NCBI RefSeq assembly: GCF_025397915.1
Contig: NZ_JALIDZ010000006.1
Coordinates: 186,001 to 250,000 of the forward strand
DNA from: Microbaculum marinisediminis
GTDB taxonomy: Bacteria; Pseudomonadota; Alphaproteobacteria; Rhizobiales; Tepidamorphaceae
Length of the DNA: 64,000 nt
Reading direction: 5' to 3'
Shown here: one piece after another, positions 1,073 to 19,976 of the stretch
How the letters are laid out: each line of letters begins with the position of its first letter
Numbering within the stretch: the stretch's first letter is position 1
Notes under the pieces: generated by a model
Database searches by the model: none
What the model was told of the DNA's origin: nothing
Seen by the model: the letters and a program-made list of their open reading frames with translations, nothing else
Position numbers and translations under genes: made by a program

Positions 1073-1081
1073 CGAGACCTG

Positions 1082-1109
1082 CGGGCCGGGTACCGGGCCC
1101 GGCCCGTTT
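1082..1109 (+). terminator. Intercistronic hairpin behind the binding-protein gene
   Basis: A 9-bp perfect G/C stem (1082-1090 with 1098-1106) closes a 7-nt loop and is followed by TTTC, ten bases after the binding-protein stop. Hairpins here commonly stabilise the binding-protein mRNA and reduce read-through into the permease genes. The T run is short, so it is more likely an attenuator or processing stabiliser than a full terminator. Confidence 0.55.
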
Positions 1110-1127
1110 CTCACCGGGAGGAACGGC

Positions 1128-2078
1128 ATGGCGGATGCCGCTATAGGAACGAGGACGATACCGGCCGAACCGTCGGCCTGGTCCCGGTTGAAAACCAACC
1201 GCGACTGGCTCGGCGCCTGGTTCATGCTGCCGACCGCCGCCTTCCTGTTCCTGTTTCTCGCCTATCCGCTCGGGCTCGGCGTCTGGCTGTCGATGACGGA
1301 TGCGCGCATCGGCCGCGAGGGGATTTTCGTAGGCTTCGAGAACTTCACCTGGCTCTACGACGATCCGGTGTTCTGGCTGTCGGTGTTCAACACGCTGCTC
1401 TACACGGCGGTCGCAAGCGTCTTCAAGTTCGCGATCGGCCTCTATCTGGCGATCCTTCTGAACCACCACCTGCCGTTCAAGGCGTTCCTGCGGGCGATCG
1501 TGCTTCTGCCGTTCATCGTGCCGACCGTGCTGTCGGCCATCGCCTTCTGGTGGATGTACGACCCGCAGTTCTCGATCATCTCCTGGACGCTCAAGGAGCT
1601 GGGGCTGATCACCACCAACATCAACTTTCTCGGCGATCCGTGGAACGCCCGCTGGTCGGTCATCTTCGCCAACATCTGGCGCGGCGTGCCGTTCGTGGCG
1701 ATCACGCTGCTCGCCGGCCTGCAGACGGTGCCGCCGTCGCTCTACGAGGCGGCGACCATCGACGGGGCTAACCGGTGGCAGATGTTCCGCCACATCACCT
1801 ATCCGATGCTCACCCCGATCATCGCGGTGGTGATGACCTTCTCGGTGCTGTTCACCTTCACCGATTTCCAGCTCATCTGGGCGATCACCCGCGGCGGGCC
1901 CGTCAACGCCACCCACCTGATGGCCACACTCAGCTACCAGCGCGCCATCCTAGGCGGCTATCTCGGCGAGGGCGCGGCGATCTCGACGGCGATGATCCCG
2001 TTCCTGCTCGCCGCGATCATGCTGTCCTGGTTCGGCCTCCAGCGCCGCAAGTGGCAGCAGGGAGAGGCCGATGACTGA
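1128..2078 (+). CDS. Sugar ABC transporter permease (MalF/UgpA type)
   Basis: This 316-residue inner-membrane permease of binding-protein-dependent transport type starts with a cytoplasmic tail and a first hydrophobic helix at about residues 28-52. The EAA loop that contacts the ATPase is clear at about residue 207 (EAATIDGANRW followed by a hydrophobic stretch and a Pro). An SD-like GGGAGG precedes the ATG. It lies 55 bp after the binding protein and overlaps the next permease by 8 bp, so translation is probably coupled. It should form the heterodimeric channel with the following gene product. Confidence 0.93.
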   Translation: MADAAIGTRTIPAEPSAWSRLKTNRDWLGAWFMLPTAAFLFLFLAYPLGLGVWLSMTDARIGREGIFVGFENFTWLYDDPVFWLSVFNTLLYTAVASVFKFAIGLYLAILLNHHLPFKAFLRAIVLLPFIVPTVLSAIAFWWMYDPQFSIISWTLKELGLITTNINFLGDPWNARWSVIFANIWRGVPFVAITLLAGLQTVPPSLYEAATIDGANRWQMFRHITYPMLTPIIAVVMTFSVLFTFTDFQLIWAITRGGPVNATHLMATLSYQRAILGGYLGEGAAISTAMIPFLLAAIMLSWFGLQRRKWQQGEADD

Positions 2079-3033
2079 GACCGCCGTCTCCAAGCGCCCG
2101 ACAGAACCAATGTCCGGGGGCGGCAGCTTTGCCCGCTGGCGCGAACGCCGCCGCCTGCGCAAGGCGGAGGAGATGAGCCAGACCGGCATGGACTACCTGA
2201 TGTCGACCCCGCGACGGGTCGTCACCATCTACGTGCCGCTCGCCATCATCGTGTTCGTGTTGCTGTTCCCGTTCTACTGGATGTTCATCACGTCCATCAA
2301 ACCGAACGAGCAACTCGTAAATCTCGACGTGGTCAACCCGTACTGGGTCGTCGCGCCGACGCTTGAGCACATCTGGGAGCTCCTGTTCGAGACACCGTAT
2401 CTGAGCTGGATGTGGAACACGATGATGATCGCGCTGGTCGCCACCTTCCTGTCGATCGTCGCGAGCGTGCTGGCCGCGTACGCGATCGTGCGGCTGCGCT
2501 ACAAGGGGGCGCAGTGGATCGGCGGGGCGATCTTCCTCGCCTATCTGGTGCCGCCCTCGATCCTGTTCATTCCGCTGTCGCTGATCGTTGTGAAGTACGG
2601 GCTGTGGGATACGCCGTGGGCCCTGATCCTGACCTATCCGACGATCCTGATCCCGTTCTCGACGTGGCTGTTGATGGGCTACTTCAAGTCGATCCCGTTC
2701 GAGCTTGAGGAATGCGCCCTGATCGATGGCGCGAGCCGTTGGCAGATCCTGACCAAGATCGTGCTGCCGCTCGCCGTGCCCGGTCTCATCTCGGCGGGCA
2801 TCTTCGCCTTCACCCTGTGCTGGAACGAGTTCATCTACGCGCTGACCTTCATCTCGACGCCGGAAAAGAAGACCGTGCCGGTCGCGATCATCTCCGAGTT
2901 CGTCGACGGCGACATCTATCGCTGGGGATCGCTGATGGCGGGCGCGCTGCTCGGCTCGGTGCCGGTCGCGATCGTCTACATGTTCTTCGTCAACTACTAC
3001 GTCTCGGCGATGACAGGCGCGGTGAAGGAATAG
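2071..3033 (+). CDS. Sugar ABC transporter permease (MalG/UgpE type)
   Basis: This is the second, 320-residue permease of the same importer. It has a charged N-terminal region (about residues 1-48) before the first membrane helix, and an EAA-loop equivalent at about residue 211 (ELEECALIDGASRW). The ATG lies inside the end of the previous gene, an arrangement typical of paired permeases. The C-terminus carries the expected last helix and ends shortly after. The function is import of a carbohydrate-type solute; the substrate is unknown. Confidence 0.93.
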   Translation: MTETAVSKRPTEPMSGGGSFARWRERRRLRKAEEMSQTGMDYLMSTPRRVVTIYVPLAIIVFVLLFPFYWMFITSIKPNEQLVNLDVVNPYWVVAPTLEHIWELLFETPYLSWMWNTMMIALVATFLSIVASVLAAYAIVRLRYKGAQWIGGAIFLAYLVPPSILFIPLSLIVVKYGLWDTPWALILTYPTILIPFSTWLLMGYFKSIPFELEECALIDGASRWQILTKIVLPLAVPGLISAGIFAFTLCWNEFIYALTFISTPEKKTVPVAIISEFVDGDIYRWGSLMAGALLGSVPVAIVYMFFVNYYVSAMTGAVKE

Positions 3034-3080: not shown

Positions 3081-3971
3081 ATGAACATCGGTTTCGTCGG
3101 TCTGGGCGCGATGGGCCTGCCGATGGCCAGGAACCTTGTCGCCGCCGGCCACGTGGTCGCCGGATGCGACGTCAGGCGCGAACCGGTCGACGCGTTGGCC
3201 GCAGCCGGCGGCCGCGCGGCGGCGGCCCCAGCGGATGCCGCGCACGACGCCGACGTACTGATCCTCATGGTCGTCAATGCGGACCAGGCGGAGGCCGTCC
3301 TGTTCGGCGAGGGCGGGGCCGCGTCCGGCCTGAAACGGGGCGCCGTTGTCGTCGCCTCCTGCACGCAGCCCGCAGCGCGCGCCAAGTCCCTTGCCGCACG
3401 GCTGGACGAGCTCGGCGTGCTCCTGCTCGACGCGCCGGTATCCGGCGGCGTGGTCGGGGCCGAGCAGGGGACGCTGTCGATCATGGCGTCGGGGCCGGAC
3501 GCCGCCTTCGACAAGGCCGCACCCGTGTTCGATGTCCTCGGCAAGGCCGTCTGGCGAATGGGGGCGGAACCCGGCCTCGGTTCGATGATGAAGACCGTCA
3601 ACCAGCTGATGTGCGGTGCCCATATCGCCGTCGCCGCCGAAGCGATGAGCCTTGCCGCCCGCGCCGGTCTCGATCCCAACCTCGCGCAGGACGTACTGAT
3701 GGCCGGCGCGGCGGCTAGCTGGATGCTCGGGAATCGCGGGCCGCGGATGCTGCAATCCGATCCGCCGGTCACCAGCGCCGTCGACATCTTCGTCAAGGAC
3801 CTAGACATCGTGCTCGATGCCGGCCGCGACCTGAAGGCGGCGTTGCCGCTCGCCGCCGCCGCCCACCAGATGTTTCTCGGCGCATCGGGGATGGGGGCGG
3901 GCTCGGAAGACGATTCCCAGGTTCTTAAGGCCTACGAAAACCTGAGCGGGATAAAGGTGCCTCGGGATTGA
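3081..3971 (+). CDS. L-threonate-dehydrogenase-like beta-hydroxyacid dehydrogenase (LtnD type)
   Basis: This 296-residue NAD-dependent enzyme belongs to the 3-hydroxyisobutyrate dehydrogenase family. The Rossmann motif GLGAMG is at residues 7-12, the substrate loop DAPVSGG at 117-123, and the catalytic Lys is K171 (in MMKTVNQ). The C-terminal GAGSEDDSQV segment resembles LtnD proteins, which oxidise L-threonate at C2; an OtnK-type kinase gene 4 kb away supports that reading. The frame is open further upstream, but the ATG at 3081 gives the Rossmann fold at the very N-terminus. The gene follows the permeases by 47 bp, probably in one operon. 2-Hydroxy-3-oxopropionate reductase is a possible alternative. 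Confidence 0.85.
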   Translation: MNIGFVGLGAMGLPMARNLVAAGHVVAGCDVRREPVDALAAAGGRAAAAPADAAHDADVLILMVVNADQAEAVLFGEGGAASGLKRGAVVVASCTQPAARAKSLAARLDELGVLLLDAPVSGGVVGAEQGTLSIMASGPDAAFDKAAPVFDVLGKAVWRMGAEPGLGSMMKTVNQLMCGAHIAVAAEAMSLAARAGLDPNLAQDVLMAGAAASWMLGNRGPRMLQSDPPVTSAVDIFVKDLDIVLDAGRDLKAALPLAAAAHQMFLGASGMGAGSEDDSQVLKAYENLSGIKVPRD

Positions 3972-4021
3972 TCGCGGGACAGGCCGGTTGTGGCCGGACC
4001 GTCGGGCACACGGAGAGCACC

Positions 4022-5689
4022 ATGAGATCCGGAAAATCGCATCGAGGCACGGACAAGCGCGGCGTCGACCGTATAGAGGATCCGTTCCTCAACAAGGGAA
4101 CGGCCTTCACCGAGGCCGAACGGCGCGAATGGGGCCTCCTCGGGCTGCTTCCGCCGCATATCGAAACGCTTGAGGAGCAGGCCGAGCGTGCCTACGAGGC
4201 GTTCTCCACGAAGGATAGCCCGATCGAGAAGCACATCTTCCTGCGCCAGCTGCAGGACGAGAACGAGACGCTTTTCTATCGACTGCTCCTGGAGCATGTC
4301 GAAGAGATGATGCCGGTCGTCTATACGCCGGTGGTCGGCGAGGCTTGCCAGAAATTCAGCCACATCTACCGGCGTCCGCGCGGTCTGTTCCTGTCCTATC
4401 CGCACCGCGATGTCCTGGGCGACATCCTCGCTGAGATAGACCGCGACATCGACGTCATCGTCGTCACCGACGGCGAGCGCATCCTGGGTCTCGGCGACCA
4501 GGGCGCGGGCGGCATGGGCATACCGATCGGCAAGCTGTCGCTCTACACCCTGTGCGGCGGCGTCCATCCGTCCCGCACGCTGCCGATCCTGCTCGATCTG
4601 GGCACCAACAACCAGGAACGGCTGGAGGACCCGCGCTACATCGGTTGGCGCCACGAGCGCATCAAGGGCGCCGACTATGACGATTTCGTCGACCGCTTCG
4701 TCCAGGCGGTGAAGGCGCGCTTCCCGAACGTGCTGCTGCAATGGGAGGACTTCGCGTCCGTCGACGCCGAGCGCATCCTCGCGCGCTACCGCAACGACCT
4801 GTGCACCTTCAACGACGACATCCAGGGCACGGCCGCCGTCACCACCGGGACGATCCTGGCGGCGATCGCTGCGGCTGGCGGCAAGCTCGAGGACCAGCGG
4901 TTCGGCATGCTGGGTGCAGGCTCGGCCGGCATCGGCATCACCGGGCAATTGATCGGCGCCCTGAAGAAGAAGGGCGTCAGCGAGGAAGACGCGATCTCGC
5001 GCTTCTACATCATGGATATCAACGGCCTGCTGCACGACGCCCGCGAGGACCTCGATGCGGTCCGCAAGCCGCTCGCCCAGAAGGCCGAAGCCGTGAAGGA
5101 ATGGGGCAAGGACCTCACCCAGGCGATCGGCCTTGCCGACGTTGTCCGGCACGCCAGGCCGACCGTACTGGTCGGTGCGACCGGGCAGGCCGGTGCCTTT
5201 ACCGAGGACGTGGTGCGCGAGATGGCCAGCTACGCGGAACGGCCCGTGATCTTTCCGCTGTCCAATCCCACTTCGCGCGCCGAAGCGACGCCGGCCGACT
5301 TGATGACCTGGACAGACGGCAAGGCGGTGGTCGCCACCGGCAGCCCGTTCGCTCCTGTCGTGCACGAGGGTGAGACGCACGTGATCGCCCAGTGCAACAA
5401 CAGCTACGTCTTCCCGGCCATGGGGCTCGGCATCATCGCCGTCGGAGCCCGGCGCGTCACCGACACCATGTTCATGGCGGCCGCCGAGGCCCTGATGGAG
5501 GTGTCGCCGGCGCTGAGCGATCCGCACGGCTCTCTGCTGCCCCCGCTGAAGGACATCCGCACGGTGTCGCGCCACATCGCAGTCGCCGTGGCGAGGCAGG
5601 CGCAGCAGGACGGCGTTGCAGATCCGATGACACCGGAGAAACTCGAACAGGCCATCGACCAAACCATGTGGACGCCTGCCTACGATTGA
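4022..5689 (+). CDS. NAD-dependent malic enzyme, oxaloacetate-decarboxylating
   Basis: This 555-residue malic enzyme converts L-malate to pyruvate and CO2 with reduction of NAD. Visible family signatures include YTPVVGEACQKF from about residue 101, a region with GDQGAGGMGIPIGK, the metal-binding stretch FNDDIQGTAA, and the second nucleotide motif GAGSAGIGI. The length matches the SfcA/MaeA class; there is no C-terminal phosphotransacetylase-like extension. The ATG at 4022 is preferred over an upstream TTG because GGAGAG precedes it and the TTG overlaps the previous stop. Its place in the cluster suggests that the sugar acid is funnelled to C4 acids or that pyruvate/NADH balance is adjusted. 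Confidence 0.94.
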   Translation: MRSGKSHRGTDKRGVDRIEDPFLNKGTAFTEAERREWGLLGLLPPHIETLEEQAERAYEAFSTKDSPIEKHIFLRQLQDENETLFYRLLLEHVEEMMPVVYTPVVGEACQKFSHIYRRPRGLFLSYPHRDVLGDILAEIDRDIDVIVVTDGERILGLGDQGAGGMGIPIGKLSLYTLCGGVHPSRTLPILLDLGTNNQERLEDPRYIGWRHERIKGADYDDFVDRFVQAVKARFPNVLLQWEDFASVDAERILARYRNDLCTFNDDIQGTAAVTTGTILAAIAAAGGKLEDQRFGMLGAGSAGIGITGQLIGALKKKGVSEEDAISRFYIMDINGLLHDAREDLDAVRKPLAQKAEAVKEWGKDLTQAIGLADVVRHARPTVLVGATGQAGAFTEDVVREMASYAERPVIFPLSNPTSRAEATPADLMTWTDGKAVVATGSPFAPVVHEGETHVIAQCNNSYVFPAMGLGIIAVGARRVTDTMFMAAAEALMEVSPALSDPHGSLLPPLKDIRTVSRHIAVAVARQAQQDGVADPMTPEKLEQAIDQTMWTPAYD

Positions 5690-5745: not shown

Positions 5746-6639
5746 ATGGGCGACAAGCGTATCGGTTTCATTGGCGTTGGCCTCATGGGCCACGGCATGG
5801 CCAGCAACATCGTCGAGAAGGGGTGGCCGCTCACCGTGATGGGCCACCGCAACCGCGCGCCGGTCGAGGACCTTGTGAGCCGCGGCGCATTGGAGGCGAA
5901 GACGCCCCGGGAAATGGCCGAGGCGTCCGATATCCTGTTCCTGTGCGTGACCGGCAGCCCGCAGATCGAGGATCTGATGCGCCGCTCCGACGGTATCCTG
6001 GCCGGGGCGCATGACGGCCTCATCGTCGTCGATACCTCCACGGCGATCCCGGATTCCACCATCTCGCTTGCGGCCGAACTGGAAGCCAAGGGCGCGGCCA
6101 TGGCCGACGCGCCGCTCGGCGGCACGCCCGCGCAGGCCGAGGCGGGCGAGCTATCGGCGATGGTCGGTGCGAGCCCGCAGGTGTTCGCCGCGATCGAGCC
6201 TGTGCTCCAGGCCTGGGCGGCCAAGGTCGTCCATCTTGGACCCGTGGGCGACGGCCACAAGATGAAGCTGCTCAACAACTTCCTGTCGCTCGGCTACGGT
6301 GCGCTCTATGCCGAGGCGCTTGCCGTCGCCCGCAAGGTCGGCATCAGTGCCCAGACCTTCGACAGCGTCATCCGCGGCAGCCGCATGGATTGCGGTTTCT
6401 ACCAGACCTTCATCCAGTACTCGCTGACCGGTGACCGCGACGTCCACAAGTTCACGCTCTCGAACGCGCACAAGGACCTGCGCTACCTCGCCGCGATGGC
6501 CAACGAGGCCGTCATAGCCAACCACATCGGCGCGGCGGCGAAGAACACCTATGCTTATGCCGAGGCGATCGGCCGCGGCGGCGACTATGTACCGTTCCTG
6601 GCCGAGATCATCGCCGAGGCGAACGGGGTTAAAACCTAG
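5746..6639 (+). CDS. NAD(P)-dependent beta-hydroxyacid dehydrogenase family protein, atypical substrate loop
   Basis: This 297-residue protein has the dinucleotide motif GVGLMG near residue 10, a DAPLGG loop at about 121-126, and a catalytic-type Lys at about 174 (HKMKLLNN). The residue that is Ser in the usual DAPVSGG loop is Gly here, so it may not act on standard 3-hydroxyisobutyrate or tartronate semialdehyde. An SD-like GGGAGA precedes the ATG at 5746. It is the last plus-strand gene of the first cluster, 56 bp after the malic enzyme. The specific substrate is unknown. Confidence 0.85.
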   Translation: MGDKRIGFIGVGLMGHGMASNIVEKGWPLTVMGHRNRAPVEDLVSRGALEAKTPREMAEASDILFLCVTGSPQIEDLMRRSDGILAGAHDGLIVVDTSTAIPDSTISLAAELEAKGAAMADAPLGGTPAQAEAGELSAMVGASPQVFAAIEPVLQAWAAKVVHLGPVGDGHKMKLLNNFLSLGYGALYAEALAVARKVGISAQTFDSVIRGSRMDCGFYQTFIQYSLTGDRDVHKFTLSNAHKDLRYLAAMANEAVIANHIGAAAKNTYAYAEAIGRGGDYVPFLAEIIAEANGVKT

Positions 6640-7495: not shown

Positions 7496-8761
7496 TCAGT
7501 TGAGCCTGTCCCAGGCCTTGATGAAGAAGTCTTCGGCACCGAAGTTACCCGACTTCAGCGCCAGGACCATGTCGTCGGTCCCGATCGCGCGAGTCCAGGG
7601 AACGCCGGGGGCGATCTGCGGGCCGATTTCGAGCATGGCCACGCCGAGCCCACCGACGACGGCGCCCGATGTCTCGCCGCCGGCAACGATCAGCCTGGTG
7701 AACCCGTTCGCGCGAAGCCCCCTGGCGACATCCGCCAGCGTTCGTTCGATGATGTCCCCGGAAGCCTCCCGGCCGAGCGTCTCCTGCGCCGTGCGGACGG
7801 CGTCGGGCTCGTCGCTCGAGTAAACCAGGACAGGGGCCTCGGCGGGCTGCCGAAGAGCCCAGGACAGGATCGTCGCGGCGCTCTGGCGGCTTTCGGCGAG
7901 GTCCTGCGGCGCGATGCGCAGCGCCGGAATGCCGGCCCCTATTGCAGCGCGAACCTGGCCGCGTGTCGCCTGCGAGCAGCTTCCGGCAAGGATCGCGGCG
8001 CGGCCGATCGGCGCGGCCATTCGTGCGGGCGTTTCGGCCGGCGAAAACGCGCCCGTGGCGACGAAGTTCCGTGGCAGGCCGATGGCGACACCGGATCCGC
8101 CGGTGATCAGCGCGAAGTCCCTGGCCGCTGCGCCGATCTCGATGAGATGCCGGTCCGTGATGGCGTCGACGACGAGGATCTTCTCGCCGCGCTTCCTAGC
8201 CTCGGCGAAAGCCGAAGCAATCGCCTCTCGCCCTGCGTCGACGGCGGGGTAGGGTACGAGCCCGACCTTCAAAGTCGTCTGCCGTTGCAGGACGCGCACG
8301 AGATTGGAATCGCGCATCGGCGTTAGCGGATGGTCGCGCATCGAGCTTTCGGCGAGCGGAACGTCGCCGACGAACAGGTTGCCCATATAGATGGTGCGGG
8401 CATTGGTCGGGAAGGCCGGACAGGCGAGCGTCAGGTCTGCGCCCGTCAGCGCCATCAGGGCTTCGCTGACCGGTCCGATATTGCCCTGGTCGGTGGAGTC
8501 GAACGTCGAGCAGTACTTGAAGAACAGCTGGCGGCAGCCCGCCGCTCGAAGCGCTTTGGCACTGGCGAGCGACATCGCGATCGCCTCGGCAGCGGGAATG
8601 GTGCGCGACTTCAGCGCGACGACCACGGCGTCATAATCTGCGAGCGACGCCGGGTCGTCCGGAACGTCGATGACCTGGATCGTGCGCATTCCGCCGGCCG
8701 TCAGCGTCAAAGCGAGATCCGTCGCGCCGGTCAGGTCGTCGGCGACAGCGCCAATGAGCAT
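7496..8761 (-). CDS. otnK: 3-oxo-tetronate kinase (OtnK type, DUF1537 family)
   Basis: This 421-residue four-carbon acid sugar kinase begins with the family hallmark ADDLTGATD. It also carries the OtnK-like stretch YCSTFDSTDQGNIG near residue 90 and the C-terminal glycine-rich GGETSGAVVGGLG region of the nucleotide site. OtnK proteins phosphorylate 3-oxo-tetronate at C4 in L-threonate or D-erythronate degradation. The start at 8761 is chosen because the family begins with this exact motif; the open upstream extension is not conserved in character. It is divergent from the isopropylmalate-dehydrogenase-like gene. The partner enzymes OtnC and OtnI are not seen in this window. Confidence 0.88.
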   Translation of the reverse strand: MLIGAVADDLTGATDLALTLTAGGMRTIQVIDVPDDPASLADYDAVVVALKSRTIPAAEAIAMSLASAKALRAAGCRQLFFKYCSTFDSTDQGNIGPVSEALMALTGADLTLACPAFPTNARTIYMGNLFVGDVPLAESSMRDHPLTPMRDSNLVRVLQRQTTLKVGLVPYPAVDAGREAIASAFAEARKRGEKILVVDAITDRHLIEIGAAARDFALITGGSGVAIGLPRNFVATGAFSPAETPARMAAPIGRAAILAGSCSQATRGQVRAAIGAGIPALRIAPQDLAESRQSAATILSWALRQPAEAPVLVYSSDEPDAVRTAQETLGREASGDIIERTLADVARGLRANGFTRLIVAGGETSGAVVGGLGVAMLEIGPQIAPGVPWTRAIGTDDMVLALKSGNFGAEDFFIKAWDRLN

Positions 8762-8824
8762 CGTTCCCCCCGTTTGCGTTTCGGGCCTTGCTCGGGGCCC
8801 CGCGATTGCCCGACCATCGCAATG

Positions 8825-8832
8825 TGTATACA
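8825..8832. promoter_or_regulatory. Small palindrome in the divergent otnK / dehydrogenase promoter region
   Basis: TGTATACA is a perfect 8-bp palindrome within the 201-bp gap between two divergent genes. GntR-type regulators often bind sites with a GTATAC-like core, so this may be an operator; the motif is short and chance occurrence is likely enough that confidence is low. Confidence 0.25.
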
Positions 8833-8962
8833 TCAGTGAATACGTTGCGTGCGACGTCCAAGAGCAGTCACGTTCCGGATATAGCACGCCTTGAGTTCAT
8901 CCGAAGACCGGACCCGGCGCGGGAGTCGCAATAGGGGGCGGCACGAAGGCAAGGCATTGGTC

Positions 8963-10066
8963 ATGAGTCCGACGCGCGAGTTCCGCATAGCCGTGTTTCC
9001 CGGAGACGGGATCGGTCTCGAGATCACCGAGCCGTGTATGGCCGTCGTCGATGCCGCCGCCAGCCGTGTCGGTGGATTGCGACTGGCCTACGAGACCCTG
9101 CCGGCCGGGGCCGGCACCTATCAGCAGGTCGGCACGGCCTTGCCGGATGCATCGATTGATGCGGCCCGCGCCGCCGATGCGATCCTTCTCGCCGCGGCGG
9201 GCCTGCCCGATATCCGCTATCCCGACGGCACCGAGATCGCGCCCCAGATCGAGCTTCGGTCGATCCTCGATCTCTATGCGGGGGTCAGGCCGGTTCGCTC
9301 GATCCCCGGCGTGCCGTCGCCGCTTGCCGATCCACGCGGCTCGCGGCTCGATTTCGTCGTCGTCCGCGAGTCGACCGAAGGCCTGTTCGTCTCCCACCGC
9401 AAGGGAACCGTCCGGGAGGACAACGAGGCGGAAGACCGATTGCTCGTCACACGGAGGGGGACGGAACGGGTCGTCGACGCGGCGATGCGCATTGCAGCGA
9501 CGCGGATGACGCGAGGCGGCAAGGGTCATGTGACCTGCGTCGACAAGGCCAATGTGTTTGCCTCCTACGCCTTCTTCCGAAAGATCTTCGACGAGCGCGC
9601 TGCGCTGCATCCGCGGCTGACCGTCGACCACGTCTACATCGATGCCTCGACCCTCGATTTCGTCGGCCGGCCGTGGCGCTTCGACGTCATCGTCACCGAG
9701 AACATGTTCGGCGACATCCTGTCGGATCTCGGCGCCGGCCTGATCGGCGGAATGGGCTTTGCGCCCTCGGCGGATATCGGCGACCGCTCTGCCGTGTTCC
9801 AGCCCTGCCACGGCACGGCACCCGACATAGCGGGGCAGGGCAGGGCCAACCCGACGGCGATGTTCCTGTCGGGTGCGATGATGCTCGAATGGCTTGCCGA
9901 GCAACACGACGAACCGAAAGCCGAAACCGCCGCCGCGACCATCCGCGCGGCGGTCGACGATACGTTTGCGAACGGTATGAGGACCTGGGAGATCGGCGGA
10001 CAATCGGGGGTGCGCGAGGTGACGGATGCCGTCCTGTCGCGCATCAAGGAGGTGGCGCCGGCGTAG
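8963..10066 (+). CDS. Isocitrate/isopropylmalate dehydrogenase family enzyme (tartrate/D-malate dehydrogenase-like)
   Basis: This 367-residue beta-decarboxylating dehydrogenase has the N-terminal PGDGIG motif, the substrate-binding Arg/Tyr region with ESTEGLF near residue 140, the Lys of CVDKANVF, and the signature with ENMFGDILSDLGAGLIGGMGF. LeuB normally belongs to a leucine operon; here the enzyme sits in a sugar-acid locus, so oxidation and decarboxylation of tartrate, D-malate or a related 3-hydroxyacid is more likely. The ATG at 8963 is preferred over an upstream start because GAAGGCAAGG precedes it and the core domain begins at once. Confidence 0.87.
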   Translation: MSPTREFRIAVFPGDGIGLEITEPCMAVVDAAASRVGGLRLAYETLPAGAGTYQQVGTALPDASIDAARAADAILLAAAGLPDIRYPDGTEIAPQIELRSILDLYAGVRPVRSIPGVPSPLADPRGSRLDFVVVRESTEGLFVSHRKGTVREDNEAEDRLLVTRRGTERVVDAAMRIAATRMTRGGKGHVTCVDKANVFASYAFFRKIFDERAALHPRLTVDHVYIDASTLDFVGRPWRFDVIVTENMFGDILSDLGAGLIGGMGFAPSADIGDRSAVFQPCHGTAPDIAGQGRANPTAMFLSGAMMLEWLAEQHDEPKAETAAATIRAAVDDTFANGMRTWEIGGQSGVREVTDAVLSRIKEVAPA

Positions 10067-10085: not shown

Positions 10086-10982
10086 TCAGTCCCTAATCGC
10101 CTTCGAGGCCCAGTACGGCGCCGCGCGGGTGTGGTCCGCGTTCGGGCCTACGCCGTCGCGGGCCTCTGCCCAGCGGTCGCGGACGAGACGGCTCACCGGC
10201 GCGTCGATCCCGATCTGCTCGCCGAGATCCGAGGCGATCCCAACATCCTTCGCCAACAGCCCGGCGGCGAAGCCGGACCCGTAGCGGCCGCTCAGGATCT
10301 CCTGCTTCAACAGGTTCTCCGTGCAGAAGCTCTTGCCGGTCGAGACGTTGAAGATGTCGGCCATCACCTCCGGGTCGAGCCCGAAACGCTCGCCGATCAG
10401 GACCGCCTCGCTCATCGCGGCAAACGAGGTCGCGGCGAGGTAGTTGTTGAGCGCCTTCATGGCGTGGCCGCATCCGAGCGGTCCGACGTCGAAGAGGCGA
10501 TCGCCCATCGCCGAAAGGACCGGTCTGGCCGCGGCCACCGCGTCGGCTTCTCCGCCGATCATGATCGCCAGCGTGCCGTTCTCCGCGCGGACGACGCCGC
10601 CGGATACCGGCGCGTCGACGAGACGGATCCCGAGTTCGGCGAGGTCGTTGCCGAGCCTGCGGGTGCCGACCGGCTCCGCCGAGCTCATGTCGATGACGAT
10701 CGCGCCGGACTTGAGATGAGCTGCCGCACCGCCTTCCTCGGCTTCCAGCAGCGAATGACGGACCTCTTTGCCGGTGGGGAGCATCGTGACGACAAACGCG
10801 CAGCCCGCGAAATCTCCCAGCGAACCGGCGGCAGTCGCGCCGAACTCGGCCGCGAACCTTTGGGCCCGTTGCGGATCGAGGTCGTAAGCGGTCACCACAT
10901 GACCCGCGCGAACGAGATTGGCGGCCATCGGCCAACCCATGTTGCCGATGCCGACGAATCCGACGTGTGCCTTGCCTGTCAT
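10086..10982 (-). CDS. 3-hydroxyisobutyrate dehydrogenase family oxidoreductase
   Basis: This 298-residue enzyme has the Rossmann motif GIGNMGWPMA near the N-terminus, a canonical DAPVSGG loop and a Lys in GHAMKALNNY. These are all residues expected of an active NAD-dependent beta-hydroxyacid dehydrogenase (3-hydroxyisobutyrate dehydrogenase or tartronate semialdehyde reductase type). It begins 4 bp after the stop of the carboxymuconolactone-decarboxylase-like gene, so the two are cotranscribed. It is the third family member within 8 kb, which suggests different sugar-acid substrates rather than redundancy. Confidence 0.88.
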   Translation of the reverse strand: MTGKAHVGFVGIGNMGWPMAANLVRAGHVVTAYDLDPQRAQRFAAEFGATAAGSLGDFAGCAFVVTMLPTGKEVRHSLLEAEEGGAAAHLKSGAIVIDMSSAEPVGTRRLGNDLAELGIRLVDAPVSGGVVRAENGTLAIMIGGEADAVAAARPVLSAMGDRLFDVGPLGCGHAMKALNNYLAATSFAAMSEAVLIGERFGLDPEVMADIFNVSTGKSFCTENLLKQEILSGRYGSGFAAGLLAKDVGIASDLGEQIGIDAPVSRLVRDRWAEARDGVGPNADHTRAAPYWASKAIRD

Positions 10983-11431: not shown

Positions 11432-11995
11432 TCATTTTTTTTTGGCGGCCGGCTTCCTGGCTGCCGGCTTCCTGGCGACTGTCTTCTTGGCAGTCGTCGC
11501 CTTGGTCGTTGTTGCCTTGGCGGCTGTCTTTGCGGCCGGCTTTTTCGCGGCGGCTGCCTTCTTGACCGCGGGCTTCTTGGCGGCGGTGGCCTTGGCGGCC
11601 GGCTTCTTCGCAGCGGTGGTCTTCTTGGCCGCCGGCGCCTTAGCAGCGGCTGTCTTTGCGGCCGGCTTCTTCGTGGTTGTGGTCTTCTTGGCGGCCGCGG
11701 TCTTCGTTGCCGTCGTCTTCTTCGCCGCTGCGGTCTTAGTCGCCGCCGGCTTCTTCGCGGTCGTGGTTTTCTTCGCCGCCGCGGCCTTGGTCGCCGCTGG
11801 CTTCTTTGCAGCCGCAGTCGTCTTCGCGGCGGTGGTCTTCTTGGCTGCGGTCTTCTTTGCCGGTGCCGCTTTCTTCGCCGCGCTGGCGACAGCCTTCTTC
11901 GCCGGAGCAGCCCGCTTGGCGGCGGTGGTAGTCTTGCGTGCCGGGGTCTTCGGAGTCGTCGAAGCGGTCTTCTTCGTCCTTGGTTTCGTGGCCAT
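11432..11995 (-). CDS. Histone H1-like Lys/Ala/Pro-rich DNA-binding protein
   Basis: This 187-residue protein is built almost wholly of AAAKK, TAAKKP and KKTTA type repeats, with Thr and Pro but no acidic or aromatic residues. That composition is typical of bacterial histone-H1-like proteins, which bind DNA nonspecifically and compact the nucleoid. The ATG at 11995 gives the usual MATKPRTKK start. The frame ends at TGA directly after nine A. The next frame continues into a CMD domain, so the protein may in reality be the N-terminal part of a 335-residue fusion. Repeat-rich DNA is also prone to assembly error. Confidence 0.8.
   Translation of the reverse strand: MATKPRTKKTASTTPKTPARKTTTAAKRAAPAKKAVASAAKKAAPAKKTAAKKTTAAKTTAAAKKPAATKAAAAKKTTTAKKPAATKTAAAKKTTATKTAAAKKTTTTKKPAAKTAAAKAPAAKKTTAAKKPAAKATAAKKPAVKKAAAAKKPAAKTAAKATTTKATTAKKTVARKPAARKPAAKKK
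11435..11443 (-). other. A9 homopolymer at the histone-like / CMD junction
   Basis: Nine consecutive A on the minus strand directly precede the TGA of the histone-like gene. With eight A the reading frame would run without interruption into the carboxymuconolactone-decarboxylase-like domain. Runs of this length favour polymerase slippage, phase variation or sequencing error. Confidence 0.9.
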
Positions 11996-12598: not shown

Positions 12599-13126
12599 TC
12601 AGCGGATGAACTGGTCGACGTAGTCCGCGCCGAGACCGACTTCGCTGTAGTGCTTCCGGCACATCTCGATCTTGGTGAAGACATCCTCGTATCCCATCGT
12701 CTTGCCATAGGGGTCGACGTAGAGCATGACGCCGTTCACCTGGAAGTACGTGATCATCTCCTCGACATCGTCGGGCACGACGAGCGTGTGCGTCTCCCCG
12801 GGGGGCTCGAAGACGTAGCCGCCCTCTCGCGCTTCCCAATCGTGTTCGAGGTAATACCAGCGGCCCTTGAGGACAAATCCGTGAACGGGCTGCGGATGCC
12901 GATGTCGCGACAGGACGCCGGACTTGCGCACGCGCAGCAGGTTCATCCAGTAGCCTTGCGAGCGGTTCAGGCAGAGCGGTCGGAAGGACACGTTCTCGGC
13001 CTGTGGAACCCAGATCCGCTCGTCCTCCGCGATCGCGTCGGGAATGACGATCTCGTCCTGCGCATCCTGGGGGAAGGGCAGTTGGTAGGGCGTTCGGGGA
13101 TCGGTGTCAGACGTTTCGACGGGCAT
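12599..13126 (-). CDS. Cupin protein of the 2,4'-dihydroxyacetophenone dioxygenase-like family
   Basis: This 175-residue single-domain cupin carries metal-ligand motif 1 with RHRHPQPVHGF (HxH plus a third His where the usual cupin has Glu) and motif 2 with PPGETHT. This resembles the all-His iron site of the 2,4'-dihydroxyacetophenone dioxygenase family. It is the last gene of the TRAP/KDG operon, 10 bp after a KduD-like SDR, so an isomerase or ring-opening role on a deoxy-uronate (by analogy to KduI/KdgF) is more plausible than aromatic cleavage; that is inference. GAGGAG precedes the ATG at 13126. Confidence 0.8.
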   Translation of the reverse strand: MPVETSDTDPRTPYQLPFPQDAQDEIVIPDAIAEDERIWVPQAENVSFRPLCLNRSQGYWMNLLRVRKSGVLSRHRHPQPVHGFVLKGRWYYLEHDWEAREGGYVFEPPGETHTLVVPDDVEEMITYFQVNGVMLYVDPYGKTMGYEDVFTKIEMCRKHYSEVGLGADYVDQFIR

Positions 13127-13136
13127 GGTGTTCTCC

Positions 13137-13841
13137 TCAGATCGCGGAATAGCCGCCGTCGACGGGGTACACGGCGCCGGTGACGAACGAAGCGTCGTTC
13201 GACACGAGCCACGCGACCAAAGCTCCGACCTCGGCCGGCCGTCCCCAGCGGTCCATGGGTGTTCGTTCAAGTATCGGTTTGTTGCGTGCCGGATCGGCGC
13301 GCAACGCCTCCGTCATCTCGGTCTCGATCCAGCCCGGTGCGACCGCATTCACGCGAATGCCGTCGCTCGCCCACTTTCCGGCAAGTGCCTTCGTGAGCTG
13401 CGCGACACCGCCCTTGGAGGCGGAATACGCCGGGACGAGCGGTCCCCCGAAATAGCTCAGCATGGACGCCGTATTGACGATCGCGCCTTTGGAAGCCGAA
13501 AGCAGTGGCTGCGCCGCGAGGCAGGTCCTCATGGTTCCGGTCAGGTTGATGTCGATCACGGTCTCGAACACGTCGATCTCGTATTCGGCACCGCGCGCCA
13601 GGATGCCGGCACAGTTGACGAGGGCGTCGAGCCGGTCGAGGCCGGCAAAGAAACGGTTCACCGCATCCGTGTCGCGAACATCCAGCACGGCGCAGCGCGT
13701 TCCGGGGTGATCGGCCGCGTAGGTCTCCACCTCCTCGCGTCCGACGCCTGTCGCCGTGATCGACCAGTCCTTGCCGGCCAGAACGTCGGCGATCCCGGCA
13801 CCGATGCCGCGTGTGCCGCCTATGATGACTGCGTGTTTCAC
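13137..13841 (-). CDS. SDR oxidoreductase, KduD-like (2-dehydro-3-deoxy-D-gluconate 5-dehydrogenase type)
   Basis: This 234-residue short-chain dehydrogenase has GGTRGIG and catalytic YSASK. Segments ASMLSYFGGPLVPAYSASK and LRADPARNKPILERTPMDRWG closely resemble the ASMLS-FGG-P-Y-ASK and LRAD-R-IL-R-P-RWG pattern of KduD, which converts 2,5-diketo-3-deoxygluconate to KDG. The following KDG kinase and KDPG aldolase genes fit such a step. Only 3 bp separate it from the kinase gene upstream and 10 bp from the cupin gene downstream. Gluconate 5-dehydrogenase is a possible alternative. Confidence 0.84.
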   Translation of the reverse strand: MKHAVIIGGTRGIGAGIADVLAGKDWSITATGVGREEVETYAADHPGTRCAVLDVRDTDAVNRFFAGLDRLDALVNCAGILARGAEYEIDVFETVIDINLTGTMRTCLAAQPLLSASKGAIVNTASMLSYFGGPLVPAYSASKGGVAQLTKALAGKWASDGIRVNAVAPGWIETEMTEALRADPARNKPILERTPMDRWGRPAEVGALVAWLVSNDASFVTGAVYPVDGGYSAI

Positions 13842-13844
13842 TGG

Positions 13845-14762
13845 CTAGTCCTGTTCCTGCAGAAAGGCATCGACGGCGACCTTGCGGGGCATCGGTGCCA
13901 CGGCGCCGTAGCCGAGGGTGGACAACGCGGCCGCGGCGTTCGCGAAGCGGGCGGCGGTGAACGGATCGTCCCCCGCGACGACGCGGGACAGGAAGGCGCC
14001 GTCAAAGGCATCGCCCGCCGCGGTGGCGTCGACGGCCACGACCTGTCGGCCGCCGATCCGCCGGCGTTCGTCGGCGGTTGCGATCAGCGTGCCCTCCGGC
14101 CCCAGAGTCAGGGCGACAATTCCGCAGCCCAACCCGAGATAGAAGTCGGCGATGGCGTCGGGATCCTCCAGCCCGGTGAGCTGTCGGGCGTCCTCCAGGC
14201 CGGGCAGGGCGATGTCGGCGCGGGCCATGGCCGCATGCGTCACCGCGCGGGCCCGTTCGATCGGCCATAGCTTGAGGCGCAGGTTGGTGTCGTAGGAAAT
14301 GCTGCCGCCTGCCGCCTTGACGATCTCGATCGCCGAGAACACCGCGTCGGCCGCCGTCGTCGAGATCGCCTGGCTGATGCCCGAGACGTGCAGGATCCTG
14401 GCGGCCTTGAGAGCGTCGACCGGAAGGTCGTCGGGACCCATGCGGCTGGATGCCGAGCCGGCGCGGAAGTAGCTGAACTCGTGCCCGTCGGGTCCGTGCG
14501 TGACGAAGTAGATGCCGGTGTGGGCATCAGACACCTGCCTGACGGTCGTGGTGTCCACGCCCTCCGTCCGCCACAGAGCCATGAACGAGTTGCCGAAGGT
14601 GTCGGCGCCGACATGGGTGATGTAGCCGACACGCGCACCCAGCCGCGCGGCGGCGATCGCACAGTTGGACGTATCGCCGCCGTGTCCGGGCAGATAGTTC
14701 CCGTCCGGCTGCTGGTTGAATTCCAGCATTGGTTCGCCGAGGCAGAGAATGTCGGGTGTCAT
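13845..14762 (-). CDS. kdgK: 2-dehydro-3-deoxygluconokinase (PfkB family)
   Basis: This 305-residue sugar kinase phosphorylates KDG to KDPG with ATP. The N-terminal part has LGEPMLEFNQ and the first PfkB signature around GGDTSNCAIAAARLG; the C-terminal signature is DATAAGDAFDGAF, with the catalytic Asp in GD. One Gly of the common GAGD box is Ala, which occurs in this family. It sits between the RraA-like and KduD-like genes, consistent with the KDG to KDPG to pyruvate plus glyceraldehyde-3-phosphate route completed by the aldolase gene 0.7 kb upstream. Confidence 0.92.
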   Translation of the reverse strand: MTPDILCLGEPMLEFNQQPDGNYLPGHGGDTSNCAIAAARLGARVGYITHVGADTFGNSFMALWRTEGVDTTTVRQVSDAHTGIYFVTHGPDGHEFSYFRAGSASSRMGPDDLPVDALKAARILHVSGISQAISTTAADAVFSAIEIVKAAGGSISYDTNLRLKLWPIERARAVTHAAMARADIALPGLEDARQLTGLEDPDAIADFYLGLGCGIVALTLGPEGTLIATADERRRIGGRQVVAVDATAAGDAFDGAFLSRVVAGDDPFTAARFANAAAALSTLGYGAVAPMPRKVAVDAFLQEQD

Positions 14763-14808
14763 AGGACGTTTCCCCTCGTTACTGGATGCGCGGACGGCAA
14801 CGGCATTC

Positions 14809-15459
14809 CTAGATCCGGCCGTACCGGGCCAGACCGTCGCGCAGCGACTTGCTTTCGATGATCAGTTTGGCCTGCTCGGCTTCGCGCATGTCGATTTCCT
14901 GCGCCATCTCGAGAACGGCCTCGGCGTGCTGGCGCGGAACGACGACGACGCCGTCGATGTCACCAACGATGAGATCGCCGGGATGGACGATCACGCCGCC
15001 CATGTCGACTTCGATGTTCGAAGCGAGTGTCTTGGCGCGACCCAGCGTCGTACCGGGGCACACGGTCCGCGAGTAGATCGGGAAATCGTAGTCGCGCCGG
15101 ATCTCGACGATGTCGCGGATCCCGCCGTCGAGCACGGCAGCCTCGTGTTTGTTGGCGACTGCGCCGGCGGCCATCAGGCCACCCCAGATCGCCACGTCGA
15201 CCTTGCCGTTGGTCGAGATCACGATAACGGACCCCGCGTCCGCCTCGTCGATCGCGTCCAGTGCGTGCTGTGGCGGCACGAACTCGTCGGTCGGGCCTTC
15301 CAGAACCGTAACCGCCGGGCCGACGATCTTGTTCTCGTTGATGCGCGGGCGGATCTCGTGACTGAGGAGTCCGGATTTTCCGGCCACCTTGTCGACGGCG
15401 TCGGCAACCGAAGCGGTCGCGACCTTGCGGAATCCGGCGACGAGTTCGTCTAGGGTCAT
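14809..15459 (-). CDS. RraA family aldolase/decarboxylase
   Basis: This 216-residue RraA-like protein has the conserved substrate and metal segment WGGLMAAGA and the catalytic DGGIRD (Arg and Asp). RraA-fold enzymes act as 4-hydroxy-4-methyl-2-oxoglutarate aldolases and oxaloacetate decarboxylases; members lacking these residues inhibit RNase E. The catalytic residues and the sugar-acid operon both favour an aldolase or decarboxylase role here. The gene is spaced 18 bp from the KDPG aldolase gene and 46 bp from kdgK. Confidence 0.9.
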   Translation of the reverse strand: MTLDELVAGFRKVATASVADAVDKVAGKSGLLSHEIRPRINENKIVGPAVTVLEGPTDEFVPPQHALDAIDEADAGSVIVISTNGKVDVAIWGGLMAAGAVANKHEAAVLDGGIRDIVEIRRDYDFPIYSRTVCPGTTLGRAKTLASNIEVDMGGVIVHPGDLIVGDIDGVVVVPRQHAEAVLEMAQEIDMREAEQAKLIIESKSLRDGLARYGRI

Positions 15460-15477
15460 GTCAGTGTCCTCGTTCTT

Positions 15478-16119
15478 TCAGGCTTGGGAAAATTGAATGG
15501 CGGACAAGGCGGCTCGGATCTGATCACGAGCCTCGTCGGTTCGTCCTGCTTCGAGTGCCTTCGCCGGCAGAAGATTCCCGCCTATCCCCACGCAGATGGC
15601 GCCGGCGTCCAGGTAGGCCTGCGCGGTCTCGGGCGAGACGCCGCCGGTCGGCATGATCGGGATATGCGGAAAGACCGCGCGAATCGCCTTCAGGAATCCT
15701 GGCCCGCCCGCGGCATCGGCCGGAAACACCTTGACCACCGCTGCGCCGGCTTCGGCGTGATGCAGGATCTCGCCGGGCGTCATGGCGCCCGGAAGATAGG
15801 GGATGCCGCCCTTCAGGGCGGTTCTGGCAGCGCCGTCGTTCCAGCACGGCGAAACCAGGAACTCGGCGCCTGCGCCGATGGCGGCGTCCGCGTCGTCCGC
15901 CGAAAGCACGGTGCCGGCGCCGATGCAGGCATTCGGGAACCGATCGCGCAGGGTGGCGATCAGCGCGATCGCGCCGGGCACGGTCATTGTTATCTCGAGT
16001 ATGGAGACGCCTTCCGCCGCCAGCAGCCCGCACGCCTGTTCGGCAATTCCAGGGTCGTCATGGCGGATCACGGGCACGACGCGCGCGGCGCGCAATCTGT
16101 CGATGAAACGATCTACCAT
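15478..16119 (-). CDS. eda: KDPG / 4-hydroxy-2-oxoglutarate aldolase
   Basis: This 213-residue class I aldolase cleaves 2-keto-3-deoxy-6-phosphogluconate to pyruvate and glyceraldehyde 3-phosphate. Visible motifs are the Glu of [18 protein letters not shown], the VSPCWND segment, the Schiff-base Lys in VKVFPAD, and the GGVSPETAQAYLDAGA phosphate loop. It overlaps the end of the upstream dehydrogenase gene by 7 bp, so expression is coupled. It acts directly after the operon's KDG kinase. Confidence 0.93.
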   Translation of the reverse strand: MVDRFIDRLRAARVVPVIRHDDPGIAEQACGLLAAEGVSILEITMTVPGAIALIATLRDRFPNACIGAGTVLSADDADAAIGAGAEFLVSPCWNDGAARTALKGGIPYLPGAMTPGEILHHAEAGAAVVKVFPADAAGGPGFLKAIRAVFPHIPIMPTGGVSPETAQAYLDAGAICVGIGGNLLPAKALEAGRTDEARDQIRAALSAIQFSQA

Positions 16120-17081
16120 CGGTTCACCCAGCTCATCGGCGGCTCTCCGGTCAACACGCGCTTCACTTCACTGGCGGCGTTCGTCTGGAGCACCGCGACG
16201 GACCGTTCCGAGTACCAGGCGGTGTGATCGGTAATCACCGTGTTGGGCGCGGACAGCAGCGGGTTGTCCGGCGAGACGGGTTCGGATTCGAACACGTCTA
16301 TGCCGGCACCGAAAATCCTGCCTTCGTGCAATGCGGCGGCGAGGGCGGCTTCGTCGACCAGTCCGCCGCGGGATACGTTGACGACGATGGACTGGGGCTT
16401 CATCAGCGCGATCTTTCCCCCGTCCAGGATATGGCGGGTGTCTTCGGTCAAAGGCGCGTGGAGGCTGACGACGTCGGCCAGTCTGCACAGCGTATCGAGG
16501 TCGACGAGGTCGACGTCGGCGGATGCCGCGCGCTCCGCGCTCAGATACGGGTCGAACGCCAGCACGCGCCCGAAGCCGAGGGCCCGGAACTTCCCGGCCG
16601 TGGCCAGGCCGATGCGGCCGCAGCCGATGAGGCCGAGCGTCGCATTCTCCCGGCTCGGAATCGTCTCGCTCTGTCCGATGCCCCACTTGCCGAGGCGCAC
16701 GTCCCGGTCACGGCCGGGAATGCGGCGCTGGACCGACAGATACAGCGCCAGGGCATGTTCGCTGACCTCGTTGTCCGCGCCGTAGTCGGGGATGTTGGCC
16801 ACATAGATGCCCCGGCGCGACGCGCAGTCCAGATCGATATTGTCGACGCCCACTCCATAGCGGACGACGACCTTGAGGCTCGGGCAGCTGCCGAACTCGG
16901 CGGCGGTCACGGGGCGCTCGCGCACCATGACCGCCACCGGATCGAGCTCGCGCAGGGCGGAGACCGCGTCGCTGCCGACACCCACCGGGACGACCCGGAC
17001 ATCCTGTTCGGACAGGATGGTCCGTTCGGTATCATAGGTGGCGTAGCCCGGTTCCAGAACGGCAACCGTTCGTGTCGGCAT
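16113..17081 (-). CDS. D-2-hydroxyacid dehydrogenase (phosphoglycerate dehydrogenase-like)
   Basis: This 322-residue NAD(P)-dependent enzyme belongs to the D-isomer-specific 2-hydroxyacid dehydrogenase family. It has the Rossmann motif GLIGCGRIG, the Arg region VNVSRGGLVDEAAL, the Glu-containing DVFESEP, and a His near the C-terminus (ITDHTAWYS). It probably reduces glyoxylate, hydroxypyruvate or a 2-oxo sugar acid. The frame stays open upstream, but the ATG at 17081 fits the family N-terminus. It is the first enzyme gene after the TRAP genes, with a 22-bp gap. Confidence 0.89.
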   Translation of the reverse strand: MPTRTVAVLEPGYATYDTERTILSEQDVRVVPVGVGSDAVSALRELDPVAVMVRERPVTAAEFGSCPSLKVVVRYGVGVDNIDLDCASRRGIYVANIPDYGADNEVSEHALALYLSVQRRIPGRDRDVRLGKWGIGQSETIPSRENATLGLIGCGRIGLATAGKFRALGFGRVLAFDPYLSAERAASADVDLVDLDTLCRLADVVSLHAPLTEDTRHILDGGKIALMKPQSIVVNVSRGGLVDEAALAAALHEGRIFGAGIDVFESEPVSPDNPLLSAPNTVITDHTAWYSERSVAVLQTNAASEVKRVLTGEPPMSWVNRW

Positions 17082-17103
17082 GACGTGGACTCGCTGCACT
17101 TGC

Positions 17104-19423: not shown

Positions 19424-19435
19424 GGCTCAGGACAC

Positions 19436-19939
19436 CTATTCGACCGACGCGCCACCGGCCTGAATTTCGAAGTCCTGCGCGACGAAGCGTTTGGCGAAGA
19501 ACGCGAGTTGGACGAGGAAGAGCGCGCACCCGATCGGGATCGCGAGATAGGGGATCCCGCGCGAGATGCCCGTCGACATCGTCTCCTTGTTCCAGCCGAA
19601 TTCGACGAACCGGATCCCGAGCCAGCCCATCACGGCCATGAAGACGAACATCACCGCGACGATCGCCCAGCGCAACGCGAGCTCGTATCTGCGCGGAAGC
19701 ATGATGGGCAGGGCGTCGATGGCCACCAGACGGCCTTCGCGCAGCGCCAGCCCCGCGCCGGCGAAGGCGCCGAGGATCATCAGGTGCCGGGCGACTTCCT
19801 CCGCCCACGCAAAGGACGTGTTGAAGCCGTAGCGGCCGACCACATTGATGAAAACGATCGCGAAGACGATCGCCAGGACGATCGCCACCAGGGCCCGATT
19901 CAGCGCGACGATCCAGCACTCCAGCGCGCGCAACGCCAT
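19436..19939 (-). CDS. dctQ: TRAP transporter small permease (DctQ)
   Basis: This protein of about 167 residues has four hydrophobic segments and the DctQ-type sequences INVVGRYGF, WAEEVARHLMI and ALREGRLVAIDAL. It is the small membrane subunit of the TRAP importer. A TTG at 19972 and a GTG at 19948 are also in frame. The ATG at 19939 is preferred because the protein then begins at the first family-like helix and because the probable operator at 19977-19993 would leave almost no leader for the TTG. GGGAGG directly abuts the ATG, which is unusually close. Confidence 0.88.
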   Translation of the reverse strand: MALRALECWIVALNRALVAIVLAIVFAIVFINVVGRYGFNTSFAWAEEVARHLMILGAFAGAGLALREGRLVAIDALPIMLPRRYELALRWAIVAVMFVFMAVMGWLGIRFVEFGWNKETMSTGISRGIPYLAIPIGCALFLVQLAFFAKRFVAQDFEIQAGGASVE

Positions 19940-19976
19940 ACCTCCCACAGCGCATTCTTGTTCGTTGAGCAAAGGC

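Follow-up and report, generated by a model that had tools for sequence, protein, structure and literature searches.

A PF00180 dehydrogenase clade without the catalytic tyrosine and its link to the 3-oxo-tetronate kinase OtnK

The otnK locus and its divergent dehydrogenase

The stretch of DNA considered here, i.e. the window, covers 64,000 nucleotides of contig C6 of Microbaculum marinisediminis (G000:C6:186001-250000; genome of 5.1 Mb in 55 contigs). It holds otnK, encoding a 3-oxo-tetronate kinase, and divergently from it a gene for a PF00180 dehydrogenase, hereafter IsoDH, member of a conserved clade that has Phe in place of the family's catalytic Tyr and is linked to OtnK across genomes. 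The features needed for what follows are listed below in window coordinates.

3081-3971, plus strand: LtnD-like (L-threonate dehydrogenase-type) beta-hydroxyacid dehydrogenase, by model NF043037
6730-7479, minus strand: short-chain dehydrogenase/reductase (SDR; PF00106), downstream of otnK on the same strand after a 16-bp gap
7496-8764, minus strand: otnK, 3-oxo-tetronate kinase, passing the NF043035 equivalog cut-off (581.4 bits vs 350)
8825-8844, no strand: operator-like imperfect palindrome TGTATACATCAGTGAATACG in the shared otnK/IsoDH promoter region
8963-10066, plus strand: IsoDH, PF00180 dehydrogenase of the Phe-type clade, best start ATG 8963
9386-9388, plus strand: Phe codon replacing the catalytic Tyr, F142 counted from ATG 8963 and F141 in alignment numbering

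The kinase gene is the sole PF07005 gene of the genome; its listed open reading frame (7496-8887) starts at an upstream GTG and its conserved start is the ATG at 8764. A sequence-only reading of the window had described the dehydrogenase as divergent from otnK with a shared promoter region, and the two genes are indeed separated by 198 bp (8765-8962). Palindromes related to the one in this gap precede IsoDH in 19 of 61 loci, the window included, and random windows of those loci match none; as the consensus was drawn from five of the 19 (the window, L143, L019, L028 and L052), 14 are independent, and in the window alone 0.25 matches would be expected at ≤3 mismatches. An inverted-repeat search in four promoter regions returned weak pairs only. 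The palindrome suggests that otnK and IsoDH could be co-regulated by a putative FCD-type GntR protein. Regarding the SDR, a homologue follows OtnK or OtnC in L013, L014, G001 and G007, with 64-75% identity.

Identity of IsoDH and replacement of the catalytic tyrosine

IsoDH matches PF00180 only (286.6 bits, gathering score 27, E 3.8e-85), not PF04166, and lies under every NCBIfam cut-off tested, namely LEU3_arch (281 vs 410 bits), the tartrate dehydrogenase model TTC (TIGR02089; 258.8 vs 470.4) and leuB (TIGR00169; 242.9 vs 353.2). A true LeuB is encoded on contig C13 (459.3 vs 353.2) and a true tartrate dehydrogenase on contig C3 (541.3 vs 470.4). With 110 bits lacking and LeuB found on C13, a housekeeping LeuB function of IsoDH is dismissed, as is, by score, a tartrate dehydrogenase function. 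Among solved structures, the tartrate dehydrogenase 3flk comes closest in sequence (E 1e-62). A D-threonate route of the PdxA type was discarded too, since the single PF04166 gene of the genome (C6:326468) encodes a PdxA of the vitamin B6 type. The IsoDH group is widespread and now annotated just as "isocitrate/isopropylmalate dehydrogenase family protein"; a search of open-licence PMC papers retrieved none tying this dehydrogenase to OtnK or DUF1537.

In these enzymes, a Lys-Tyr pair reportedly performs the acid-base chemistry (title of Aktas and Cook 2009); in IsoDH the Lys of this PF00180 pair is present and the Tyr is a Phe. Relatives were gathered from 80 OtnK loci, eight genomes of the family, samples of its class (385) and phylum (398) and plasmids (8 of 492 records), leaving a badly aligned eukaryote-type isocitrate dehydrogenase (ICD_G000) out of both the Tyr/Phe count and the tree. 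In the alignment, Phe replaces Tyr in all 63 rows of the clade, and Tyr is kept in six other rows, i.e. the LeuB and TTC of this genome, L075, L058 and the plasmid relatives L209 and L210 (44-46% identity). A branch with support 96/95 separates the 63 rows from the rest, in a tree that includes some long outer rows and whose bootstrap had yet to settle fully. In the rows shown, the equivalents of the Lys, of three Arg and of three Asp are conserved, a Rhodococcus row (L211) being the single exception: in the numbering of the Thermus isopropylmalate dehydrogenase, Lys185 and Asp241 have their equivalents in every row shown, and Asp245 is a Glu in L211 alone.

The Phe of the clade may serve to stop the reaction before decarboxylation. 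The proposal of the sequence-only reading that the dehydrogenase performs both oxidation and decarboxylation is unlikely, because IsoDH no longer has the catalytic Tyr and is usually accompanied by OtnC, an enzyme dedicated to decarboxylation. PMC6505628 describes Tyr139 of IDH1 as crucial; among open-licence PMC papers, a literature check found no direct report on the effect of a Tyr-to-Phe change.

Whereabouts of LtnD, OtnC and OtnI

L-threonate and D-erythronate are degraded by a four-step route composed of LtnD, OtnI, OtnK and OtnC (Zhang et al. 2016, cited after PMC12540250). The window was said to encode an LtnD-like enzyme and OtnK without OtnC or OtnI, with which profile scores and tblastn agree: neither was found in the window, where the best tblastn match to OtnC spans 42 aa (E 0.58), and the PF00596 and PF01261 matches of the whole genome all fall outside it. 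The LtnD-like gene appears closest to LtnD by profile score, just below the NF043037 cut-off of 350 bits by 8-10 bits (340.4, and 342.1 in a second scan; next best family 229.6). The otnC gene, the only one of the genome with a class II aldolase domain (PF00596), stands in the same island at G000:C6:178291-178926, 7.1 kb left of the window (NF043034, 335.2 bits vs 250). An OtnI-type gene lies among unrelated genes on contig C1 (NF043033, 353.3 bits vs 325); against the hydroxypyruvate isomerase (Hyi) model TIGR03234 it obtains 330.5 bits for a cut-off of 353.45, a closeness suggesting that distant OtnI copies may be Hyi.

The absence of OtnC and OtnI is consequently an effect of the window edge, nothing essential is missing, and the genome probably carries the known LtnD-OtnI-OtnK-OtnC route; that the genes lie outside the window was the second alternative offered from the sequence alone, and it proved right for otnC. 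The initial observation is mostly explained by the window edge; it leaves a genuine dehydrogenase clade that is conserved, unstudied and linked to OtnK.

Linkage of IsoDH to OtnK across genomes

In the class sample, OtnK is present in 24 of 32 genomes with IsoDH vs 24 of the 353 lacking it (Fisher p 2e-18), this co-occurrence test being uncorrected for genome size and, as all the linkage tests, for shared ancestry (L019 and L052 are close kin). Within 8 kb of 50 surveyed IsoDH genes were found OtnK (11), OtnC (8), LtnD (1) and OtnI (0). Gene clustering over 57 loci retrieved OtnK (17), Gfo/Idh/MocA oxidoreductases (17), GntR regulators (14), OtnC (13) and SMP-30 lactonases (9), as well as tripartite ATP-independent periplasmic (TRAP) or tripartite carboxylate transporters; it misses L188, which tblastn puts within 8 kb. 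Among ten scanned IsoDH loci, OtnK passes its equivalog cut-off in all and OtnC in eight (L085 and L169 fail).

Clade members neighbouring OtnK-OtnC come from Alphaproteobacteria, Gammaproteobacteria and Rhodothermota. In Sedimenticola (L084), a transporter, IsoDH, OtnK and OtnC are in line, and a run in Sulfitobacter comprises an aldolase (OtnC equivalog), otnK, a lactonase-like protein, a TRAP transporter, IsoDH, a Gfo/Idh oxidoreductase and a GntR regulator. On Rhizobium/Agrobacterium plasmids (L206, L207), the genes are annotated, in order, as ABC transporter, oxidoreductase, GntR, IsoDH, quinol monooxygenase, haloacid dehalogenase, aldehyde dehydrogenase, otnK and otnC. Within this IsoDH-otnK-otnC run lie genes for a type II haloacid dehalogenase and for a small protein with an ABM domain (L206:9107-10143, and L207). 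The presence of DenD in the Rhizobium operon was considered and rejected, both NAD(P)-dependent oxidoreductases of L206 being of the PF01370 epimerase type with no NCBIfam match at E 1e-20.

Regarding LtnD and OtnI, the six of the 80 OtnK loci with a Phe-type IsoDH have neither, compared with 39 of the 74 others having at least one (p 0.026). L058, which is 37-38% identical and keeps Tyr, was left out of the IsoDH locus counts. OtnI accompanies 21 of 27 LtnD loci vs none of the six IsoDH-OtnK loci (p 0.0008). Over whole genomes, LtnD passes its cut-off in none of the six with an adjacent IsoDH, compared with 28 of the 42 other genomes that have OtnK (p 0.003). Tallies at OtnK loci with a threshold of 80 vs 60 bits were 69 vs 70 for OtnC, 32 vs 33 for OtnI and 26 vs 27 for LtnD.

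The surrounding catabolic island

The other genes of the island that fall in the window are as follows.

47-3033, plus strand: ABC (ATP-binding cassette) sugar transporter, with a solute-binding protein (47-1072) and permeases (1128-2078 and 2071-3033)
3968-5689, plus strand: malic enzyme, same operon, start uncertain (NF010052, 822.9 bits vs 326)
5749-6639, plus strand: second HIBADH-family dehydrogenase (PF03446/PF14833), below all NCBIfam equivalog cut-offs
10086-10982, minus strand: third HIBADH-family dehydrogenase, convergent with IsoDH (TIGR01692, 195.7 bits vs 291.6)

The solute-binding protein matches PF13416, the two permeases were named by position and operon context, and the transporter ATPase, of the UgpC type, lies left of the window (L002:18611-19687; NF008653, 518 bits). 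Together with this transporter, the malic enzyme and the second HIBADH-family gene, the LtnD-like gene forms an operon-like run. As a whole, otnC, a split transketolase, an SDR, an IlvD/Edd-type dehydratase, the ABC transporter, the LtnD-like gene, malic enzyme, HIBADH, SDR, otnK and IsoDH make up one island. In G007, from another genus of the same family, the order dehydratase-ABC-LtnD-HIBADH / SDR-OtnK / IsoDH is kept, with the same gene order in the ABC transporter. The malic enzyme gene sits inside the sugar-acid operon in the genus of M. marinisediminis and is absent from the island of G007 (L199). The third HIBADH gene adjoins IsoDH in G005 too (77% in L141).

Left of the window, at L002:12932-15510, the two-gene split transketolase and the SDR beside otnC could be part of a further route for branched or short sugars. 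Within the window, a second sugar-acid cluster occupies 12599-18117 and, on the minus strand, 18137-19972, with a GntR-type gene at 20077; comprising a cupin, an SDR, a 2-keto-3-deoxy-sugar kinase-like PfkB, RraA-like, Eda-like aldolase and D-2-hydroxyacid dehydrogenase-like genes and a TRAP transporter, its gene content resembles that of a uronate or deoxy-sugar acid pathway. Between the two, a 187-aa Ala/Lys/Pro-repeat protein encoded at 11432-11995 (minus strand) resembles histone H1-like proteins.

Functional interpretation and rival explanations

From these observations we infer, as a tentative reading falling somewhat short of probable, that IsoDH oxidises a C4 sugar acid to 3-oxo-tetronate with NAD and without decarboxylation, which would feed OtnK and OtnC; on this reading the locus is part of a C4 sugar-acid catabolic island ending in these two enzymes. 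IsoDH would bind a Mg2+-chelated C4 hydroxy acid (tetronate), pass a hydride from the hydroxyl to NAD+ and, deprived of the catalytic Tyr, release the oxo acid with decarboxylation not completed. Oxidation at C3 would yield 3-oxo-tetronate, to be phosphorylated by OtnK and decarboxylated by OtnC into dihydroxyacetone phosphate, and would bypass LtnD and OtnI; the acid itself would be supplied by the products of adjoining lactonase, Gfo/Idh or aldehyde dehydrogenase genes. The loss of Tyr fits an oxidation ending before decarboxylation, that step being left to OtnC, and direct C3 oxidation would explain the occurrence of IsoDH, OtnK and OtnC without LtnD and OtnI. An OtnC of the Aldolase_II kind takes the 3-oxo form, according to PMC12540250. 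The OtnC encoded here is of this kind (PF00596, NF043034), and so are the OtnC equivalogs of the scanned IsoDH loci. Mapping the (2R,3S)-isopropylmalate geometry on a tetronate points to L-erythronate or L-threonate as the possible substrate; we know of no bacterial route assigned to L-erythronate, a C4 sugar acid.

The more general proposal, in which the Phe-type PF00180 clade would be a tetronate 3-dehydrogenase ending at the beta-keto acid, so that IsoDH, OtnK and OtnC replace LtnD, OtnI, OtnK and OtnC, is on the doubtful side. The alternative route by the dehydrogenase put forward in the sequence-only reading, a possible one in the organism at hand, is sustained in part by comparison: relatives of IsoDH share with OtnK-OtnC operons that have neither LtnD nor OtnI, and IsoDH is neither LeuB nor TTC.

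Several observations weigh against a C3-oxidising entry enzyme. OtnK is absent within 8 kb in 39 of the 50 IsoDH neighbourhoods of the genome survey, and in G004 and G005, from the same genus, SDR and IsoDH remain together with no OtnK between, OtnK being elsewhere. In genomes with IsoDH away from OtnK, LtnD is as frequent as in other OtnK genomes (13 of 18 vs 15 of 24). In a metagenome-assembled genome of Bordetella, a Tyr-type PF00180 gene (L058:8905-9963), 37-38% identical to IsoDH, is divergent from OtnK-OtnC, and in L075 a tartrate dehydrogenase is near OtnK; Phe is therefore not required for the association with OtnK, which may have arisen more than once. With L058 keeping Tyr beside OtnK-OtnC and most IsoDH neighbourhoods devoid of OtnK, a strict tie between Phe and OtnK was rejected. 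This genome has an LtnD-like gene and the SDR, so that entry into the pathway does not have to depend on IsoDH here, and the SDR is an equal candidate for that role. Besides, OtnI passes its cut-off, away from OtnK, in five of the six genomes with an adjacent IsoDH, so that OtnI may still be used, and the three substrate-binding Arg, all kept, would suit a dicarboxylate as well.

These distant OtnI-type genes are in line with an explanation without any bypass, in which IsoDH, as LtnD and DenD do, would oxidise the C2 hydroxyl of L-threonate or D-erythronate into 2-oxo-tetronate, then converted to the 3-oxo form by OtnI, and would thus be a non-orthologous LtnD. The malate-like orientation of the superfamily, with the C1 carboxylate at the metal, would presumably favour C2 oxidation of a 2R acid too. 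This explanation is nevertheless unlikely, given that OtnI is found in none of the 50 IsoDH neighbourhoods nor at the six IsoDH-OtnK loci, when most LtnD loci have it, and that distant copies, scoring 353 with NF043033 vs 330 with TIGR03234 in this genome, may be Hyi. Alternatively, the conserved Arg, three in number and carboxylate-binding, and the tartrate dehydrogenase 3flk as nearest solved structure would agree with a tartrate- or malate-type C4 dicarboxylate as substrate, in a separate branch with malic enzyme and HIBADH, the vicinity of OtnK then reflecting a shared acid-sugar regulation. Malic enzyme is indeed encoded in the neighbouring operon, G004 has dihydroxy-acid dehydratase (DHAD), malic enzyme, HIBADH, SDR and IsoDH together with no OtnK there, and several loci include tripartite tricarboxylate transporters; yet the true tartrate dehydrogenase of the genome is elsewhere, the island of G007 is devoid of malic enzyme, and co-occurrence with OtnK is strong even when the genes are not adjacent (24 of 32 genomes), which leaves this possibility improbable to a similar degree. 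Least probable of all, and quite unlikely, is that only the known four-step pathway runs here, scattered over the genome, with IsoDH as an unrelated neighbour: OtnC and OtnI-type genes exist, the LtnD-like gene is in the neighbouring operon, and G004 has a full LtnD-OtnK-OtnC-OtnI set, with a different OtnK, away from IsoDH, but the IsoDH-OtnK association recurs in Alphaproteobacteria, Gammaproteobacteria and Rhodothermota, and distant loci have in common the divergent order and the operator-like site.

Were the tentative assignment of IsoDH as a non-decarboxylating tetronate dehydrogenase true, a widespread PF00180 group would gain a function, acid-sugar pathways ending in OtnK and OtnC a new entry, and the clade would offer a natural test of the role of the catalytic Tyr in beta-decarboxylating dehydrogenases. 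Were it wrong, the locus would still stand as a warning that a "missing" OtnC can be an effect of the window edge.

Comparison with known systems

The tartrate dehydrogenase TTC (3flk, TIGR02089), which oxidises some substrates without decarboxylation, is the closest solved relative of IsoDH by sequence, from which IsoDH differs by its score (259 bits vs a cut-off of 470.4) and by the Phe in place of Tyr. In the DtnK-PdxA2 pathway for D-threonate, PdxA2 (PF04166, model NF002891) acts after the kinase and decarboxylates. While this pathway likewise associates a DUF1537-family kinase with a dehydrogenase oxidising a beta-hydroxy acid, PdxA2 belongs to PF04166, whereas IsoDH belongs to PF00180 only and the one PdxA of the genome is of the vitamin B6 type.

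A three-step bypass, LtnD/2-OtnK/2-OtnC, needs an OtnC of the F_bP_aldolase type (Guo et al. 2024, cited after PMC12540250). Like it, the route proposed for IsoDH would dispense with OtnI; unlike it, the proposed route would involve an Aldolase_II OtnC and a PF00180 dehydrogenase instead of LtnD and an F_bP_aldolase-type OtnC. The operation of this bypass here was set aside, the OtnC type (PF00596, NF043034) being a misfit, with no genome-wide search for an F_bP_aldolase OtnC made. As for the LtnD-OtnI-OtnK-OtnC pathway, the genome shares with it equivalogs of OtnK and OtnC together with an LtnD-like enzyme and an isomerase of the OtnI type, and departs from it in the scattering of the genes, in an LtnD-like enzyme 8-10 bits under its cut-off and in the extra PF00180 dehydrogenase divergent from otnK.

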